The notes below the pieces were generated by a model. It did no database searches. It saw nothing but the letters and a program-made list of their open reading frames with translations, and was not told the origin of the DNA. A stretch of 64,000 nt of DNA from assembly GCF_000613905.1 (NCBI RefSeq), contig NZ_BAJW01000002.1, positions 1-64,000 of the forward strand. The letters run 5' to 3'. The stretch's first letter is position 1. Every line of letters begins with the position of its first letter. The position numbers and the translations under genes are program-made. Below are positions 44,916 to 53,693 of the stretch, one piece after another. This DNA is from Acetobacter persici JCM 25330. GTDB lineage: Bacteria; Pseudomonadota; Alphaproteobacteria; Acetobacterales; Acetobacteraceae.

Positions 44916-45804
44916 ATGTCAGACACACGCTTTACAGGCTCCATCACCGCCCTGATTACCCCCATGAATCGGATGGCAGTCTGGACTTCACATCTTTTGA
45001 ACATCTGGTGAACTGGCAGATTGAAGAAGGAACGTCAGCCCTCTGCGCCATGGGAACAACGGGAGAAAGCCCGACCCTGTCGCATCAGGAACATCACGAG
45101 GTTATTGAACGCGCCATCAAGGTCTCTGCTGGCCGCGCGCCCGTAATCGCAGGCGCAGGCTCCAACAGCACCGCAGAAGCTGTTGATCTGGCCCGCCACG
45201 CTGAAAAAGCCGGAGCCTCTGCGGTTCTTGTCGTGACACCCTATTACAACAAACCAACGCAGGAAGGCCTCTACCGGCACTTTATGGCGGTTGCGGATGC
45301 CATTTCCATTCCGGTTGTGCTCTATAATATTCCCGGCCGGTCCGTTGTTGAAATCAGCGTAGAAACGACCGCACGTCTGGCCCGCCACGCCAATATTATT
45401 GGCGTAAAAGATGCCACAGCCAATCTCCTGCGTCCGCTCCAGGTGCGTCGGGCCGTCAGCAAGCCATTCAATCAGTTGTCTGGTGAAGATGGTACGGCGG
45501 TCGCATTCCTCGCGGCCGGTGGAGATGGCTGCATCAGCGTCACCTCCAACATCGCCCCCGCGCTGTGCGCGCGTGTGCAGGCTGACTGGCAGGCAGGCCG
45601 TGTGGCTGACGCCATTGCCGTGCAGGACAAACTCCTGCCGTTGCATGATGCACTGTTTTGTGAAAGCAATCCGGCGCCGGTCAAATACGCCGCAAGCCTT
45701 CTGGGGCTGGCCGGGGAAACATGCCGCCTTCCGCTCGCGCCCCTTACGGATCTTCACGCCAGCTTGTTAAGGCCGCGCTGGTTGATGCCGGACTGCTGAA
45801 CTAA
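44916..45804 (+). CDS. dapA: 4-hydroxy-tetrahydrodipicolinate synthase (two apparent frameshifts)
   Basis: Class I aldolase of the lysine/diaminopimelate pathway, condensing aspartate semialdehyde and pyruvate. The ATG at 44916 gives FTGSITALITP. The frame breaks at about 44970 (one C missing; restored reads MNPDGSLDFTSFEHLVNWQ). It breaks again near 45748 (one G missing; restored reads LTGSSRQLVKAALVDAGLLN), ending with TAA at 45802-45804, 296 aa. Motifs seen: GTTGESPTLS, VVTPYYNKPTQEGLY, YNIPGRSVVEIS and catalytic Lys in IIGVKDATANL. Confidence 0.94.
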
Positions 45805-45807
45805 CTC

Positions 45808-46305
45808 ATGGCGAAGAAACCCGCAAAGGCGACCATGATTTCTCATGGTATTGCCGCACAAAACCGCAAGGCACGCTTTAACTACACGATTACGGAAACC
45901 ATTGAGGCAGGGATTGTTCTGAAAGGGGCTGAAGTCAAAAGCCTGCGTCTGGGAAGGGCGACAATTGCGGAAGCCTTCGCTGCAGAGCGCGACGGAGAAC
46001 TGTGGCTGCTCAACAGCTATATCCCTGAATATCAGGGGGGCGTTCTGTCCCGTTTTGATACCCGCGCCCCACGTAAACTCCTGCTCCACAAGAAGCAGAT
46101 TGAAAAATTTCTTGGCGCGGTGGCGCGGGAAGGGGCGACTCTGGTGCCTCTCGATATTCATTTTAACGCCCGTGGCTGCGCAAAAGTCACACTGGGGTTG
46201 GGTGAAGGCAAAAAGAGCGTTGATAAACGCCATGCCATAGCCGACCGTGACTGGCAGCGCGACAAAGCGAGGCTACTTCGCAACAAAGGCCGCGGGGACT
46301 ACTAA
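45808..46305 (+). CDS. smpB: SsrA-binding protein SmpB
   Basis: Binds tmRNA and escorts it to stalled ribosomes. The 165 aa are family length. Motifs seen: AQNRKARFNYTI, GIVLKGAEVKSLRLGRA, NSYIPEYQGG and the C-terminal basic tail beginning KKSVDKRHAIADRDWQRDK. It starts 3 bp after the corrected dapA stop, a common alphaproteobacterial order. tmRNA itself is not in the window. Confidence 0.97.
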   Translation: MAKKPAKATMISHGIAAQNRKARFNYTITETIEAGIVLKGAEVKSLRLGRATIAEAFAAERDGELWLLNSYIPEYQGGVLSRFDTRAPRKLLLHKKQIEKFLGAVAREGATLVPLDIHFNARGCAKVTLGLGEGKKSVDKRHAIADRDWQRDKARLLRNKGRGDY

Positions 46306-46371
46306 CGCCTGCCTTTCTCAGCCCGCCGTGTTCCGATTATTTCAGGATTTGCCAAGCAAAATCGCAGGCAT

Positions 46372-46399
46372 AAAAAAACCCCGCACAAGGCGGGGTTTT
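46372..46399 (+). terminator. Bidirectional terminator between smpB and the cold shock gene
   Basis: AAACCCCGC (46376-46384) pairs with GCGGGGTTT (46390-46398), flanked by seven A (46372-46378) and four T. It serves smpB on the plus strand and the cold shock gene (stop at 46426) on the minus strand. Confidence 0.9.
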
Positions 46400-46425
46400 C
46401 CTGTTTTATACGGTGAGTATAAAAC

Positions 46426-47136
46426 TTAGTCTGCGTCGATTGCAGCGGCTTCCGGACCTTTCTGGCCCTGAACAACGCGCACATTCGTCACCTGACCTTC
46501 GTTGAGGCTGGCAAGACCAGAACGCTCAAGAGCAGAAGCGTGAACAAAGATGTCTTTGCCGCCGCCATCAGGCGTGATGAAGCCAAAGCCTTTGGTCGCG
46601 TTGTACCATTTTACGGTACCACGGACTTCTTCAGCAGAGGACAGATCCGGAGCCGGACGCGGTGCGCGGCCACCAAAGCCACCAGCAGCGCGCGGCGCGC
46701 CACCAAAACCACCAGAACGCGGACGTTCCGGCTGAGCCGTGCTTTCATCAACGGAAATGACTTCAGCAACCTGACGACCCTTCGGACCCTGACCGATGCG
46801 CACGGACAGGGTAGCACCGGGGCTTACGCCATCGTGGCCAGCCTGAGACAGGGCATTGGCATGCAGGAAGACATCGCCAGAACCATCGGACAGTTCAACA
46901 AAGCCGAAGCCTTTTTCGCTGTTGAACCATTTGACAGTCGCTCCGATTTCCGGACCGGAAGCGATAACCTGCGGGCCACCACCTCCTGCGGGTCTGCGCG
47001 GAGCATATCCGCCACGGTCACCACCGCCGCCGCCAAAAGCGGGACGTTCGCCATAGGAAGGCGTTGACATAAAATCATCGTCAAATCCGCCGCGGCGCGG
47101 AGAACGAGAGCTGCGGTCGGTCCTGTTACTTCTCAA
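46426..47136 (-). CDS. Cold shock protein with two CSD domains and Gly/Arg-rich linkers
   Basis: 236 aa with two cold shock (S1-like) domains: the first around residues 62-130 ([25 protein letters not shown]), the second around 165-234 ([24 protein letters not shown]). These RNP1 and RNP2 motifs bind single-stranded nucleic acid. The N-terminus and the linker are rich in Gly, Arg and Pro. The start is uncertain: the TTG at 47136 with AGGA 10 bp upstream, or the ATG at 47070. Double-CSD proteins are typical of alphaproteobacteria. Confidence 0.88.
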
Positions 47137-47445
47137 CGGTCTTGATCCTGGAGCATGGAGAAGGCATTTGCTTCTCCAGATATTGAAAAACGGGTAAGGT
47201 GGTCTGCAACCACACCCAGTGATGACTTACCATACCGGCATTGTCGTCGCTATAGAAAAGCATGGAACTGATCCGGGTTTCATCTCTTTTCCGGACTATA
47301 ACATTTTTGTGACACCCAGACCGGAAATACAGACCTCACTCCTTCTTCCGCAGGGCGGATGGCCGGAAATCAGGGTTTCTTGTTGCCGCGCAATCAACTA
47401 AAGAAAATAAAACTGACTCTGCATTGGCAGAACGAGAGGAAAGCT
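47137..47445. other. 309-bp divergent intergenic region, cold shock gene / LpxR-like gene
   Basis: It separates two divergent genes and so should hold both promoters; none is clear by eye. A perfect 7-bp hairpin, GGAGAAG (47157-47163) with CTTCTCC (47171-47177), lies about 20 bp upstream of the cold shock start and could be part of its 5' leader. GAGAGGA at 47434-47440 is the ribosome-binding site of the LpxR-like gene. A short open frame at 47219-47401 shows no coding character. Confidence 0.5.
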
Positions 47446-48507
47446 ATGTCCGCCGTCATGAAATTACCCCACGTGAGGTATATTGCTGCCGCAACCCTTA
47501 TGCTGGCTGGCACCGCTCTGGCCCCTCGCTCCGTTGCACATGCAACGCCCTTGCAGGACAAGCAGGGCACATGGACTCTGCAAGGTGAGAACGATGCTGT
47601 TTCGACTCTGAAAGGCACATCTGACCAGTACTATACCAGTGGCCTGCGGCTGAACTGGACCTCCGGCACCGATACGCTTCCCACCCCCATAGCCGCCATT
47701 AACAAGGCCATCTGGGGCAATGGGGTGCAGCGCATCAGCATGGGTCTCCAGCAGATGATTTTCACGCCGCGTGACACCCAGTCTTCCAGCCCGTGGGGGG
47801 CTGGCCAGCAGCAGTCAAGCCTGCTGCGTGACCGGCCTTACTCCAGCCTTCTGCTGGGCACCATCAACCTGATTAATGATACAGACACAACGCGGAGCGT
47901 GTTTGGTATTCAGGCTGGCGTCATGGGGCCTGCGGGCCTTGGTCGCCAGCTTCAGAACGGCTTCCATGGTGCGATCGGGGATACCAAAAATCAGGGCTGG
48001 CAGCACCAGTTGCAAAATCAGCCTATTTTTCAGGTGCAGGGTGGGCGGACATGGCGTCTGCCGATTGTGGATCTTGGCCCCATTCAGTTTGATACGCTGC
48101 CCTCAGCCGCAGCCGCCATTGGCGACTACCAGATTTACGGCAAAATCAGCGATATGATCCGCTTCGGGCAGGGGCTTGACAGTGACTTTGGCACCCCCAC
48201 CATTCAGGCTGCGGGCACGGACGGAACGGACGCCTATAAAGCAACCCGACCAGTCGCCTGGTACTTTTTTGGCGGTGTGACGGGTGAGGCCGTGGCGTAT
48301 GATGCCTCTCTTGAAGGCAACACCATGCGCAGCAACTCCCTGCATGTGAACAAGAAGTGGGACGTGGGTGAAATTCACGCTGGTCTTGCCGTGATGTTCT
48401 ACGGGCTTCGCGTCTCTTACAGCCAGGTCTGGCAGACTCAGCAGTTTGATGGTGCCAAATCAGGCCTGTTCAATTACGGGTCGCTCATGGTTTCAGCCAA
48501 GTTCTGA
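47446..48507 (+). CDS. LpxR-family outer-membrane lipid A deacylase-like protein
   Basis: 353 aa with a signal peptide (about 1-33, ending near ALAPRSVAHA). Family pattern of LpxR beta-barrels: GENDAVSTLKGTSDQYYTSGLRLNW near the mature N-terminus (conserved Asn-Asp and YT-x-G), GVMGPAGLGRQLQNGFHGAIG (key Gly-Pro, Gln-Asn and His residues), then GWQHQLQNQP. It ends with an aromatic residue (SAKF), as usual for OmpA/BAM substrates. In Salmonella LpxR removes the 3'-acyloxyacyl group of lipid A. The activity here is inferred by family only. Confidence 0.87.
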   Translation: MSAVMKLPHVRYIAAATLMLAGTALAPRSVAHATPLQDKQGTWTLQGENDAVSTLKGTSDQYYTSGLRLNWTSGTDTLPTPIAAINKAIWGNGVQRISMGLQQMIFTPRDTQSSSPWGAGQQQSSLLRDRPYSSLLLGTINLINDTDTTRSVFGIQAGVMGPAGLGRQLQNGFHGAIGDTKNQGWQHQLQNQPIFQVQGGRTWRLPIVDLGPIQFDTLPSAAAAIGDYQIYGKISDMIRFGQGLDSDFGTPTIQAAGTDGTDAYKATRPVAWYFFGGVTGEAVAYDASLEGNTMRSNSLHVNKKWDVGEIHAGLAVMFYGLRVSYSQVWQTQQFDGAKSGLFNYGSLMVSAKF

Positions 48508-48696
48508 TCCGACCGATACAAAAACAGGCACATGCTCAATAAATAGGCGTTAACTTTCCGTAATTGTTCTTTTTTTGTGGTTTTTGCGCAACTTTATGAA
48601 GTTTCTGCCTCATTCTGAGGCGCAGAACCACGTTTTGTCTTGGCGTTAAGGAAATCGCCATTTTACATTTGACCTCAGAAAGACCTCTGGTGTTCG

Positions 48697-49071
48697 ATGG
48701 AAATGGAACTTCTGATGCCGCGTAAGAATGATGCCCCGTCTGTCAGCAATGTCGTCCCGTTCCAGATGGAAATTCTGTCTGGCCACCGGGAATATCTCTC
48801 CCGCTGGCTGCATGCAGGACAGCCCATGGGCGTCTGTGATGCCGACATTTTTTCCGTTGAGCAGCGGCAGGCAGGGGTCTCTTCGGGCTACGTTCTGATC
48901 TGGGTTCGGGAAACACCAGACCCGGCCTACAAAGTCTATTCCCGCGGCAATAGCTGGGTTGTGATGGACGCCATCCGGGAAAATGTTCTGGGCCAGTTCC
49001 GCTCCTTTGCAGACGCGCTGCACATGGTGCGTCCGGTCCTGCCGCGCCCCGAGAAAATAGTCGCCGCATAA
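48697..49071 (+). CDS. Hypothetical protein
   Basis: 124 aa, no signal peptide or membrane helix. I do not recognise the family. It has a mixed composition with PFQMEILSGHREYLSRWLHAG, GVCDADIFSVEQRQAG and a GYVLIWVRETPDPAYKVYSRG block, which looks like a compact alpha/beta fold. The start could be any of three near Met codons. The upstream spacer (48508-48696) has a bulged hairpin (48603-48627) without T-tract, and a good terminator follows the gene. Confidence 0.65.
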   Translation: MEMELLMPRKNDAPSVSNVVPFQMEILSGHREYLSRWLHAGQPMGVCDADIFSVEQRQAGVSSGYVLIWVRETPDPAYKVYSRGNSWVVMDAIRENVLGQFRSFADALHMVRPVLPRPEKIVAA

Positions 49072-49127
49072 GATGCATTGTGGCGTTACCGCGCCGCATT
49101 TTCTCTTCAGACACGGTCTTCTTCTGC

Positions 49128-49163
49128 AACACTCTGATGCGCGGCGTCAGAGTGTTTTTTATT
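49128..49163 (+). terminator. Rho-independent terminator of the hypothetical gene
   Basis: The perfect 10-bp stem AACACTCTGA (49128-49137) with TCAGAGTGTT (49147-49156) is followed by TTTTATT. It separates the hypothetical gene from the OpuAC-like gene. Confidence 0.87.
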
Positions 49164-49309
49164 GGCGTTTTTCCGGTTCTGCCCGCCCGTGAGAAAGACG
49201 CCGCGTTCCACAAGAAGAGCAGTAAAGCGATTTCAGGGATTGCACATCTGCGCTTCTCCTGCTGCAAGGTCTCAATAAGACCTGTAAGCCTGACGTTAAG
49301 GATGATGAT

Positions 49310-50059
49310 ATGACGACGATAACTCTCGCCCACCCGGACTCAACAGTGCATGAGGCGACAGCGGCGGCTATCATCCGGGTTCTTGAAGCCAATGACGTAG
49401 AGCCGGAGATTGTCATTGGGCCAAAATCGGCTCTGGCTGACATGCTTAAAAACGGTGAGATTGATCTCTATGTTTCCGCATGGTTGCCTGATGATGATTC
49501 CGATCTGCTCGCCCCCGGCGTCACCCCCCTCGGCAAGCTGTTTCAGCCCAGCGCATGCTGCTGCATTTCACGCGAGGATGGCCCGGTTGTCTCCCTGACA
49601 GACGTCGCACAGGCGGGGCCGGAACTATCCCGGACCATCATCACTCCGGCGTCACTGCGCAAGCATGTTGAACAGATGCTCACGGATTACGCACTGGCAG
49701 ACGCAGGCTTTACCCTCAAGGTCCTGCCGGATGAAGAAGCTCTTGCGTCCATAACGGCAGCCCTGAACAGTAAAGACTGCATCCTTATGCCGCTTGTTCA
49801 GCCTTGCTTCCTGTTCCATCAGGGTGGCTTTCGTATTCTGTCTGACCCCAAGGGCAGCATGGGCAAAGAGCAGGAAGCCAGTATGTTGATGCGCCCCGGG
49901 CTGACAGACGATATGGATCAGGACTTACAGGACGAACTGGATGAACTGATGCTGAGCACCAAGGTGATCAGCGCCATGGACTTTGCCATGCGCACAGAAG
50001 GTCTGACGGCGGATGAAGCCGCAGAATCCTGGCAGCGGGGCAAACTGCTGCCTCGCTAA
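49310..50059 (+). CDS. OpuAC-like substrate-binding protein without signal peptide
   Basis: 249 aa resembling the glycine betaine/proline ABC substrate-binding domain (PF04069-like): an early ITLAHPDSTVHEATAAAIIRVL block and GEIDLYVSAWLPDDD, which is the ligand-loop pattern. No signal peptide or lipobox is visible: the first residues are MTTITLAHPDS with AAGGA just upstream. No permease or ATPase gene is next to it. An unusual Cys triplet (83-85, SACCCIS) is present. It may be a cytosolic binding or sensor protein; function unknown. Confidence 0.75.
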   Translation: MTTITLAHPDSTVHEATAAAIIRVLEANDVEPEIVIGPKSALADMLKNGEIDLYVSAWLPDDDSDLLAPGVTPLGKLFQPSACCCISREDGPVVSLTDVAQAGPELSRTIITPASLRKHVEQMLTDYALADAGFTLKVLPDEEALASITAALNSKDCILMPLVQPCFLFHQGGFRILSDPKGSMGKEQEASMLMRPGLTDDMDQDLQDELDELMLSTKVISAMDFAMRTEGLTADEAAESWQRGKLLPR

Positions 50060-50073
50060 AGGAGACACTGCGC

Positions 50074-51332
50074 ATGACAAACCAGAACGGCTCCGACACG
50101 CGGGATACTGAACTGGCGGCACAGTATGAAGCCTATCCCTACCCAGAGCGTAATCCGCAGGATGAAGCCACACGGTTGCTGATTGGCAGCCCCAGCCATC
50201 TGCGTGAAATTGACTATTGGGTTTTTGGCGCACGTCGCCCCTGCAGCCAACCGCTTCGTGCCCTGATTGCCGGGTGCGGCACCGGGATGGTGCAATCATG
50301 CTGGCGACCCAGATGGCGCGCGCGGACAGGCCGGGGGAAGTTCTCTGTGTGGATCGCTCCCGTCATGCGCTGTCCATTGCGCAGGAACGCGCCAAAATTC
50401 GGGATCTCAGCAATATCCGGTTTGTAGAAGGGTCGCTGACGGACCTGCCGAACCTTGATCTCGGTCTGTTTGATTATATCGATTGCTGCGGCGTGCTGCA
50501 CCACCTTCCGGACCCTGACACCGCACTGGCGGGGCTGGAAGCCGCTCTTGCGCCGGGCGGCGGTATGGGGCTGATGGTTTATGCCCCGTATGGCCGCACC
50601 GGCGTCTATATGCTGCAAGACGCTCTGGGGGAGCTGGCTCCCTATGAGGAAGCGCCCGCAACACGGCTCGACATGGCCAGACGTGTGATGCGCCATCTGC
50701 CTGCCACAGCGTGGCTCAGGCAAAATGGGAATTTTGGAGACCATCTGAGCGGCGGAGATGCCGGGCTGTATGATCTGCTCTTGAACCCAAGAGACCGCGC
50801 TTATACCGTTGGCGCGTTTCTAGACCTGCTGGACGGGGCAGGGCTGGAAGCCTCCAGCCTGATGGAACCCGCCCGGTATGATCCGGCTCTTTTCCTTCCT
50901 GATCCCAGAATCCGGGTCCGCATTGCGCAACTCCCGGCTCGGCAACAGGCCACGATTGCGGAAGCCTTGATGGGAAACATGGCGACGCATGTTGCCTATG
51001 TTGTCCGCAAAGGCGCACGCATTACGCCCCCAGATGCCTCCTCATTTGATGCCGTGCCGGTCATGCGTGAAATCCCCGGCATTGAACTGGCAAAACAAAT
51101 GCGTGCCGACCACACACTGCCTTTCGCATTCGGGACGCTGGTTGTGCCTATCCCGTTACCACCGCAGGCTCGGGGGCTTCTGCCTCTTATTGACGGGGAA
51201 CGCACGGTGGGCGATCTGGCGGCTGTCCTCGCAACGCGCGGCGTTCCGGAAAACAAGTTCCGAACCGTTTGGCAGGAGACCTTTCAGACACTGGAACGCC
51301 TGAACCGCGTGCTGCTTCTGCCGCCTGCATGA
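50074..51332 (+). CDS. Class I SAM-dependent methyltransferase (apparent frameshift)
   Basis: 419 aa after correction. The SAM-binding motif I is ALIAGCGTGDGAIML, reached only if one G is restored in the GGG run at 50284-50286. Then come VLCVDRSRHAL (acidic loop), FVEGSLTDLP and FDYIDCCGVLHHLPDP (motif IV). A C-terminal extension of about 170 aa after the methyltransferase core has no recognised domain. Strong ribosome-binding site AAAGGAG. The stop overlaps the next gene (ATGA). Substrate unknown. Confidence 0.85.
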
Positions 51333-51874
51333 GGTCCGGCGCGCCTTCAGGCAGGAGAGACAAACAGCCAACTCTTCCAATTATTATTTTCGGAGCGGCG
51401 CTTCGTGCAAACGGAACGCCGTCTCCCGCCTTGCGGCACAGGGTGCAGGCCGCTGTGCAGTTTGGAGCAAGACAGAACAAACCGCTTTACCTTGTAACAG
51501 GTGGCGTTCCGCGTAACGGCGTGACGGAAGCCGCAGTCATGCGAGATATGCTTCTGGCGGCCGGTGTTTCCTCAGAAAACATTCTTGAAGACCCTGCCGC
51601 AACGGATACGTTCGATTCAGCCGTCAACTGTACGAAAATTCTGGAAAAACAGGGATTTTCCGGTGCTACTATCGCCCTGAGCACCAGCACCTATCACCGG
51701 CCGCGCTGCCTTTTACTCATGCGTCTGGCAGGCTGGACGGTACGGGCTGTGCCTTTCCCGTTCCCCGTAACCGGCCGGAACGCAAAACTCCGCACACTCC
51801 TGCGCATCGGGCATGAACTGATCGCCAGCGTGTGGGATGCTTTTCTGGTCATATGCTGGCGTATTGTGCGCTGA
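51329..51874 (+). CDS. YdcF/DUF218-family protein
   Basis: 181 aa from the ATG at 51329, overlapping the methyltransferase stop. The DUF218 pattern is visible: IIIFGAALRANGTPSPALRHRVQAAV, YLVTGG, EDPAATDTFDSAVN and STSTYHRPRCLLLMR. Family members (YdcF, SanA, ElyC) bind SAM or act in envelope biogenesis. No N-terminal membrane anchor is seen, so this looks like the soluble YdcF branch. Function is uncertain. It is translationally coupled to the methyltransferase. Confidence 0.82.
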   Translation: MRSGAPSGRRDKQPTLPIIIFGAALRANGTPSPALRHRVQAAVQFGARQNKPLYLVTGGVPRNGVTEAAVMRDMLLAAGVSSENILEDPAATDTFDSAVNCTKILEKQGFSGATIALSTSTYHRPRCLLLMRLAGWTVRAVPFPFPVTGRNAKLRTLLRIGHELIASVWDAFLVICWRIVR

Positions 51875-51985
51875 GCACGGGCGGCGTATCCTGACAGCCT
51901 CTCCTTTCAAACAGCACTCCATGAACTGCGTTTGATCTGATTTCAGCCTGACAGGCTTGAAGAACCTCTTGAAACAGTAGGTATT

Positions 51986-52930
51986 ATGGCTGTTTACGCT
52001 TTTATCTTTCCGGGGCAGGGAAGCCAGTCCGTCGGTATGGGGGCAGAGCTTGCCGCCGCCTTTCCTTCAGCACGCGCCGTGTTCGAAGAAGTGGATGATG
52101 CGCTGGGCGAAAAACTCTCCCAAACCATTTTTGAAGGGCCCATGGAGGCTCTGACCAGCACGGAAAACGCGCAACCGGCTCTGATGGCTGTGTCCATGGC
52201 CGTGCTCCGCGTTCTTGAAGAACAGGGCGGTCTGGATCTGGCTGGAAAAGTCACGCTGCTGGCCGGGCACTCACTGGGTGAGTATGCGGCTCTTGCGGCC
52301 GGTCGTGCATTTGGCGTTGCTGACGCCGCGCGTTTGCTGCGCACCCGTGGCCTTGCAATGCAGAAAGCCGTACCGGCAGGTGAGGGCGGCATGGCGGCTC
52401 TGATCGGTGCCACTCTGGCCCAGACACAGGAAATCTGTGAAAAAGCCGGGAAGGGCGGTGTGCTGGAAATCGCCAATGATAACGGCGGTGGCCAGATTGT
52501 TATTTCCGGCACGATGGCCGCGATTGATAACGCAATCACGCTCGCAAAAGAGATGAAGATCAAGCGCGCCGTGAAACTGCCCGTCTCAGCGCCGTTCCAT
52601 TGCTCCCTGATGCGCCCGGCAGAAGACGTTATGGCCGAGGCTCTGGCAAAAGCAGATATCGCAGCCCCGATCATCCCCGTGATTACCAATGTTACTGCCG
52701 ACAAGGTGAGCGATCCGGATGCGATTCGTCAGGCCCTGACAAAGCAGGTGACAGGCCGTGTCCGCTGGCGCGAAAGCGTGGAAGCCATGACAGGCGTGGG
52801 TGTCGATACGTTTATTGAAATTGGTGCAGGAAAAGTGCTTTCAGGCCTTGTGCGCCGCATTGATCCGGAAGTTTCCACCAGCTCTGTCGGCACGCCCGCA
52901 GAGATCGAAACCCTCCTGAAATCTTTTTAA
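51986..52930 (+). CDS. fabD: Malonyl CoA-ACP transacylase
   Basis: Loads malonyl groups on ACP for fatty acid synthesis. 314 aa. N-terminal FPGQGSQSVGMG, nucleophile motif GHSLGEYAAL (Ser), catalytic-Arg region RTRGLAMQKAVPAG, and PVSAPFHCSLM with the catalytic His. First gene of a fabD-fabG-acpP-fabF-mltG run; fabG starts 19 bp after its stop. A promoter should lie at 51875-51985 but is not evident. Confidence 0.97.
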   Translation: MAVYAFIFPGQGSQSVGMGAELAAAFPSARAVFEEVDDALGEKLSQTIFEGPMEALTSTENAQPALMAVSMAVLRVLEEQGGLDLAGKVTLLAGHSLGEYAALAAGRAFGVADAARLLRTRGLAMQKAVPAGEGGMAALIGATLAQTQEICEKAGKGGVLEIANDNGGGQIVISGTMAAIDNAITLAKEMKIKRAVKLPVSAPFHCSLMRPAEDVMAEALAKADIAAPIIPVITNVTADKVSDPDAIRQALTKQVTGRVRWRESVEAMTGVGVDTFIEIGAGKVLSGLVRRIDPEVSTSSVGTPAEIETLLKSF

Positions 52931-52949
52931 AACAACGGAATAAGAATTT

Positions 52950-53693
52950 ATGTTCAGGCTTGATGGAAAAACCGCCCTTGTGACGGGTGCGTCCGGCGGT
53001 ATTGGGCGTGCAATTGCCGCTGCCCTGCATGCTCAGGGTGCGACAGTCGTTCTGTCCGGCACGCGGGAAGCCGTGCTGCAGGAACAGGTTGCAGAACTCG
53101 GCGGGGAGCGGGCGTTTTATGTCACTGCCAACCTCTCCGACGCCGCGGAAGCCGATGCGCTGGTTGGCAAGGCAGAAGAAGCCGCAGGCGCACCGCTGGA
53201 TATTCTGATCAACAACGCAGGCCTGACGCGGGACACACTGGCGCTGCGCATGAAGGATCAGGACTGGGATCAGGTTCTGAATGTCGACTTGTCTTCCCCG
53301 TTCCGTCTGTGCCGCGCTGCCCTGAAAGGCATGCTCCGCCGCCGTGCTGGCCGCATTGTGAACATTGCATCCGTTGTCGGCACGACTGGCAATGCGGGAC
53401 AGGCCAACTATGCCGCTGCCAAGGCCGGAATGGTCGGCATGAGCAAATCTCTGGCGCAGGAAGCCGGTTCCCGCGGCGTGACGGTCAACGTCGTCGCCCC
53501 CGGCTTTATTGTGACACCCATGACAGATGTTCTGCCGGACGCACAGAAAGAGAAACTGACCAGCGCCATTCCGCTTGGCCGCCTTGGCAAACCGGAAGAT
53601 GTCGCCTCGGCCGTTCTGTATCTGTGTTCGGAAGAAGCCGGGTGGGTTACAGGCTCAACGCTGCATGTTAATGGCGGCATGGCTATGGTATAA
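52950..53693 (+). CDS. fabG: 3-oxoacyl-ACP reductase
   Basis: NADPH-dependent short-chain dehydrogenase of 247 aa reducing beta-ketoacyl-ACP. Motifs seen: ALVTGASGGIGRAIA (coenzyme), INNAGLTRD, IVNIASVVG (catalytic Ser) and NYAAAKAGMVG (Tyr and Lys). Position between fabD and acpP is the classic order. The 272-bp gap to acpP (53694-53965) has a GGCTC/GAGCC hairpin and no gene that I can support. Confidence 0.97.
   Translation: MFRLDGKTALVTGASGGIGRAIAAALHAQGATVVLSGTREAVLQEQVAELGGERAFYVTANLSDAAEADALVGKAEEAAGAPLDILINNAGLTRDTLALRMKDQDWDQVLNVDLSSPFRLCRAALKGMLRRRAGRIVNIASVVGTTGNAGQANYAAAKAGMVGMSKSLAQEAGSRGVTVNVVAPGFIVTPMTDVLPDAQKEKLTSAIPLGRLGKPEDVASAVLYLCSEEAGWVTGSTLHVNGGMAMV

Follow-up and report, generated by a model that had tools for sequence, protein, structure and literature searches.

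In Acetobacter persici, the gene at 49310-50059 of the window that we analysed, a stretch of 64,000 nucleotides, encodes a protein of 249 amino acids, an OpuAC domain that is conserved widely, carries an invariant tail and has probably been repurposed. We tentatively favour the reading, held with somewhat less than even confidence, that this is a cytosolic protein of the OpuAC fold, repurposed in acetic acid bacteria, which would serve as a ligand-responsive sensor or adaptor with a docking tail and not as part of an importer. An earlier note on this DNA had already seen the OpuAC fold, the missing signal peptide and the missing importer and had thought a cytosolic location possible, all of which stand; the quaternary amine that it proposed as ligand and the tie to the neighbouring methyltransferase fare worse, and the main surprise beyond it is the wide conservation and the tail. 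The features of the gene itself are the following:

49223-49225, + strand: TAA stop codon in frame upstream, with 28 open codons between it and 49310
49310-50059, + strand: coding sequence of the 249-amino-acid protein, started by ATG
49481-49483, + strand: codon of W58, the only Trp of the betaine prism that is kept
49556-49564, + strand: codons of the triplet Cys83-Cys84-Cys85
50030-50056, + strand: C-terminal tail WQRGKLLPR, residues 241-249, bearing the family signature WQRG[KR]LxxR

The reading frame has the extent that had been described for it, with an AAGGA 5' of its ATG, and it is a real gene under strong purifying selection. Indeed, dN/dS amounts to 0.030, 0.040 and 0.057 against three close relatives (saturation left two more pairs without a value), and such an excess of synonymous changes over replacements indicates that the gene is functional. 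Its closest named relatives are those of Acetobacter malorum, A. cerevisiae and A. orleanensis, with a protein identity of 94-95%. The absence of a signal peptide is borne out by the 28 in-frame codons 5' of 49310, which include zero ATG, GTG or TTG. Across the family, 18 of 72 loci have a stop in frame no more than five codons ahead of the start, equivalent to 17 of 63 distinct 5' ends, where the 72 are the 73 family loci minus one with a broken frame and the start codon was set by hand in ten of them; in the remaining loci the open frame extends further 5', with possible upstream start codons in some. Taken together, these stops and the missing upstream start make it very unlikely that a signal peptide is masked by a base error near 49300, the escape route that had been left for an exported protein, and we rejected this candidate. 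The same observations bear on the reading of an ordinary betaine-binding protein of the periplasm whose start was mis-called, or of a decaying remnant, to which membership of the OpuAC family would lend itself but which the 5' stops, the lack of an upstream start, dN/dS values of 0.03-0.06 and the failure to find an importer largely contradict, so that we regard it as scarcely credible.

The fold assignment is carried by both profile and structure. The Pfam OpuAC profile PF04069 matches residues 3-241 (E 1.8e-22, 80.6 bits against a cut-off of 21.2), and at E 0.01 no NCBIfam family matches the protein. Its AlphaFold model has a mean pLDDT of 95.6 and a pTM of 0.89, and the best match of this model among solved folds is the open form of lactococcal OpuAC (3l6g: Z 24.7, rmsd 2.5, 238 residues aligned), with the closed form (Z 23.7), Borrelia ProX and ChoX (2reg, Z 22.5) close behind. 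The glycine betaine/choline-type fold that had been read from the sequence is thus confirmed by both approaches.

As for the importer, no permease or ATPase gene flanks 49310-50059. In the organism's own assembly (236 contigs, 91% complete), no other OpuAC match exceeds the Pfam cut-off, a second and partial one reaching 14.1 bits, and a search with the ProV profile TIGR01186 returned 41 loose ABC ATPase stretches, none of them above the cut-off (best 225.9 against 326.6 bits). Within these flanks and this assembly, the claim that the protein has no transporter partner is therefore upheld. As it has no signal peptide and no importer was found, the protein is most likely cytosolic, which had also been proposed. 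Compared with what defines the binding protein of an importer, the leader is absent, no cognate permease or ATPase gene adjoins and no ProV match in the assembly passes its cut-off, and the Trp prism and carboxylate contacts are wanting by alignment. Annotated relatives are named as binding proteins of ABC transporters, to which the 249-amino-acid protein cannot readily belong.

This protein is not isolated. When it was used as a query against Acetobacteraceae, 82 of 299 genomes gave a match, of which 74 were counted as members; the other 8 were set aside as ordinary binding proteins (six loci were fetched, five of them having a leader or a long 5' extension; L070 is cut at a contig edge, and G269 and G293 were judged on genus and score only). 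Profile A1, whose 54 rows are what remains of 71 family proteins after removal of 10 near-copies (61) and of 7 more omitted by choice, matches 124 of 200 genomes in the order sample, 110 of them to the profile end with E <= 6e-58, and the 14 others, with E no better than 2.5e-19 and read in part, were likewise set aside. Also left out of the rows were L045 and L078, which have broken frames, and the weak canonical matches, and some loci represent one genome present in two collections (L002/L035, for example). Of 49 genomes from the genus, 47 have the family, the misses being one 68% complete assembly and one genome of 1.5 Mb; one carrier has the gene in two pieces and one, with 9% contamination, has two copies. 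Most carriers have a single copy, including many with genomes of about 2 Mb. A near-universal protein of the genus with an invariant tail makes a tractable experimental target.

Outside Acetobacteraceae, the matches stop before the profile ends. Of 289 genomes sampled from the class, 27 match at 1e-8, 23 of them outside the family Acetobacteraceae, and the furthest reaches position 242 of 247; in the phylum sample, 20 of 398 match at 1e-14, 14 of them outside, and none goes past position 239. No match from outside Acetobacteraceae spans the whole profile in these two samples, within which the full tail-bearing form is confined to Acetobacteraceae. No viral relatives were confirmed. In a maximum-likelihood tree of 73 rows, the 54 family rows fall on one side of a branch with a support of 100/100, their monophyly being tested against 6 signal-less and 13 other, canonical relatives, which are small comparison sets taken from search returns (the start of L106 was chosen, its frame being longer). 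The protein of the window has its place in this clade and carries the WQRG[KR]LxxR C-terminus, the two marks that define the family. Among the inspected part of the literature matches, we recognised no paper describing a signal-less OpuAC family of acetic acid bacteria.

The tail is the most constrained part of the protein. Q242, R243, G244, L246 and R249 are found in all 54 rows, W241 in 53, and a Lys or Arg at position 245 likewise in 53. The mean column entropy is lowest at 241-249, with 0.51 bits against 2.4-2.8 for the blocks in 81-160, and conservation is strongest over residues 201-249 as a whole; in helix 1, A18, R23 and A27 are likewise invariant. Each of the invariant tail residues is encoded by 2 to 5 different codons, which means that the constraint acts on the protein. 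Q242, G244, L246, R249, D205, D208 and E239 each occur in at most one of the 19 signal-less and canonical relatives. From this pattern we infer that the conserved C-terminal face is a docking face.

The ligand pocket has followed the opposite course. In lactococcal OpuAC, according to the accessible part of PMC2861598, betaine is held by a Trp prism, in which W484 is named, and its carboxylate is contacted by a His and by the backbone of G437/V438; the His number given there (392) misses a His in the numbering of our alignment, by which we mapped the pocket onto the 249-amino-acid protein, and the His five residues after W377 was used. W58, which aligns with lactococcal W377, is Trp in 53 of 54 family rows, in 6 of 6 signal-less and in 13 of 13 canonical relatives. 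The choice of His agrees with the W225/H230 pair of Bacillus subtilis OpuAC. The N-terminal prism Trp is S11 here (Trp in 0/54 family against 12/13 canonical rows) and the equivalent of W484 is V163 (24/54 against 13/13), and the full three-Trp prism is found in none of the 54 family rows against 12 of 13 canonical ones, one Trp of the three being left in our protein. The carboxylate-contacting His is D63 (His in 4/54 against 10/13, with gaps beside position 63 in 20 rows; Asp in 47/54), and the Gly of the ligand loop is A114 (Gly in 2/54 against 13/13). With prism Trp, His and loop Gly gone, the betaine pocket appears largely dismantled.

What is kept instead is an alternative set, made of H14 (48/54), D63, Y/F78 (54/54), Q164 (45/54) and P165 (53/54), which homology suggests to sit on the cleft, and D52, P60, P165 and W58 are kept as in betaine binders. 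This set matters for the possibility that we are dealing with a ligand-free docking or scaffold protein, in which the OpuAC fold would serve as a fixed platform with a vestigial cleft, and nothing but the C-terminal face with its tail would matter. Conservation does peak at 201-249, the betaine-coordinating residues are lost or variable, and cleft-side residues differ between genera (W/C/L/F at position 84, W/A/F/V at position 163), which also fits a cleft that is out of use; but the conservation of W58, D63, H14, Y/F78 and P165 exceeds what would be expected there, and we find this explanation unlikely, if still one to be reckoned with.

The retained residues also bear on the ligand that had been put forward, a quaternary amine (choline or a betaine, for instance), for which the protein would be a cytosolic sensor or scavenger. 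The nearest folds are indeed betaine and choline binders, and since the second prism Trp, at 163, is present in 24 of the 54 members next to the kept W58, D52, P60 and P165, part of the family may bind some quaternary amine. In the protein of the window, however, only W58 is left of the three prism Trp, a loss of pocket aromatics being what the earlier note had itself held to count against its proposal, and the His has become Asp and the loop Gly is gone, these being the contacts given in the accessible part of PMC2861598. By alignment, the proposal is thus weakened to the point where we judge it rather improbable. The conserved H14, D63 and Q164 could alternatively belong to an active site. 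An enzyme arisen from a binding protein would then be a counterpart of cyclohexadienyl dehydratase, which is reportedly the enzyme of the solute-binding-protein-to-enzyme study. Enzymes evolved from solute-binding proteins are described in the accessible part of PMC7683729 and provide precedents, but there is no invariant catalytic-looking pair or triad, and the residues found in 54/54 rows lie mainly in helix 1 and at the C-terminus, all of which renders an enzyme quite doubtful to us.

The triplet Cys83-Cys84-Cys85, which had been singled out as unusual, is present, and its wider meaning does not follow: of the 54 aligned rows, 7 have CCC, every one of them from Acetobacter, and the triplet is specific to that clade. 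For this reason it was rejected as a conserved metal or redox site. C84 co-occurs with C166 in 11 rows, and as these are confined to one clade, the coupling is probably a single event. One may combine these residues with the tail into a bolder picture, that of a cytosolic metabolite sensor, defining the clade of acetic acid bacteria, which would have lost its leader, swapped its ligand and gained a basic docking tail for the regulation of a partner, possibly the type II fatty-acid synthesis encoded nearby, and in which the change from W84/H166 to C84/C166 in Acetobacter would make the site thiol- or metal-responsive; we give it only a slim chance.

The surroundings of the gene are as follows:

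49128-49156, + strand: terminator-like stem-loop of 13 pairs followed by a T run, 3' of the upstream gene, a consensus match only
50074-51332, + strand: class I SAM methyltransferase gene, starting 14 bp downstream, a neighbour and not an obligate partner
51269-51874, + strand: YdcF/DUF218 gene (PF02698, 7.2e-22), given from a mechanical ORF start, the true start being probably later
51986-52930, + strand: fabD-like acyltransferase gene (PF00698), which heads the fab run
52950-53693, + strand: fabG-like short-chain reductase gene (PF13561, 3e-62)

The stem-loop at 49128-49156 suggests that the gene at 49310 opens a new transcription unit, in a region with 6 terminator-like sites against 3.7 in shuffles. 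No RNA family reaches its gathering score in 45000-53000. Further upstream, 47359-48507 encodes an outer membrane protein of the LpxR family (PF09982, E 5.8e-73) that is syntenic in 14 of 15 named Acetobacter loci, the exception being L044, and 48697-49071 encodes a protein of 124 amino acids, 63-94% identical across the Acetobacter loci that show it and without Pfam or NCBIfam match at E 0.01.

The start of the methyltransferase gene at 50074 is confirmed. Its frame is interrupted here, with one intact frame of about 420 codons in a relative, and the break is probably an assembly or sequencing error. This gene lies directly downstream in 51 of 73 family loci. Among 23 tested carriers without an adjacent methyltransferase, 19 have no copy anywhere and 4 carry one elsewhere (G001, G022, G048, G295), and it is present in 10 of 12 tested genomes that lack the family. 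Co-occurrence across the 36 tested genomes thus led us to reject it as an obligate partner and to see in it an old neighbour that is not required, so that the functional tie suggested by its proximity is not sustained.

In most carriers read, the family adjoins a fab gene run. Of the 43 family loci that have wide flanks, 38 show a same-strand FabD downstream, and the 5 others (L047, L051, L052, L053, L062) have no FabD in range; in L055, a gene on the opposite strand intervenes before fabD. An operon requirement is unsupported given L055 and these five loci, which make a link to fatty-acid synthesis only a lead. In L048, a one-strand and mostly tight series is made of a ferritin-like gene, the family gene, the methyltransferase, YdcF, fabD, fabG and a beta-ketoacyl synthase. 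The first of these (L048:3932-4759), directly upstream of the family gene, encodes a ferritin-like or desaturase-like protein with weak FA_desaturase_2 and rubrerythrin matches, and by our reading similar-looking genes occur in L055, L060 and L068.

Returning to the sensor or adaptor that we favour, its functioning can be pictured in three steps. A betaine-type binding domain, related to importer proteins, would have been repurposed in acetic acid bacteria. It would open and close on a small cytosolic ligand other than classical betaine, held in the cleft by a putative set composed of H/Y/F8, H14, W58, D63, Y/F78 and Q164-P165. Its state would then be relayed to a putative partner through the C-terminal face, with D205, D208, E209 and WQRG[KR]LxxR.

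The best matches outside the family include a second set of OpuAC proteins that stand alone and have no evident signal peptide, in L104, L114, L115, L118, L120 and L127-L131 (the annotated start of L131 lies further upstream). Five of these genes have the following coordinates:

L104:4803-5564
L114:4836-5618
L115:4846-5622
L118:5001-5774
L120:4965-5786

They come from Acetobacter (L104, where it is a second OpuAC gene), Paraburkholderia, Phaeobacter, Rhizobium, Vibrio and Leisingera, and where they are annotated, it is as ABC-transporter binding proteins. A GINPGAGISRFS-like loop is common to five aligned members, as are WLPxSHG and PLWxPQ, and the 249-amino-acid protein, having neither a GINPGAGISRFS-like loop nor WLPxSHG, falls outside the group. 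The profile built from five of them matches, at 1e-40, 4 of the 397 genomes sampled from the phylum, and in one of these, G056, it is the family member that matches, which makes the group rare in that sample. Eight of the 10 loci have a LysR gene no further than about 4 kb away (by Pfam in L104, L114 and L115, by annotation in L120, L127, L128, L129 and L131, not in L118, whose genes are only listed, nor in L130), two Vibrio loci being near-copies. Several loci are also near alcohol dehydrogenase, quinone reductase or RidA genes. In the tree, signal-less OpuAC proteins stand between the 54-row family and exported binding proteins, and, the tree being unrooted, the group may possibly be ancestral to the family or intermediate toward it.

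Among known systems, Pfam solute-binding profiles also catch single-domain proteins of the cytosol, a class noted in the accessible part of PMC9602780, which our protein resembles by its binding-protein fold, its probable cytosolic location and a presumed alternative function; that part names no OpuAC family of acetic acid bacteria. With the choline-binding protein ChoX (2reg) it shares the fold and, in our reading of the alignment, an acidic residue near position 63, whereas ChoX is by its title the binding protein of an ABC transporter, and position 163, where ChoX has a Trp in the alignment, holds Val in our protein. The OpuAC domain of lactococcal OpuA (3l6g/3l6h) is alike over the whole chain and in the Trp that W58 matches, and differs in that permease, ATPase and export are missing here, that the remaining two Trp of the prism, the His that contacts the carboxylate and the Gly of the ligand loop have not been retained, and that the WQRG[KR]LxxR tail is present. 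The second signal-less group is like the family in having no evident signal peptide and mostly no adjoining importer, with the exceptions of L120, beside sugar-ABC genes, and L130, beside TRAP genes; in the latter, from Phaeobacter inhibens, the signal-less gene (L130:4483-5292) lies inside the TRAP run, flanked by the genes of the TRAP binding protein and of the small permease. It differs from the family in that the aligned signal-less members, L106 included, keep W58, W163 and His63 throughout and, with one exception, the loop Gly, and have no WQRG tail. The family offers a clear example of how a binding domain leaves its importer, and this signal-less group, which keeps betaine-type residues, is a possible intermediate that still exists in other bacteria.
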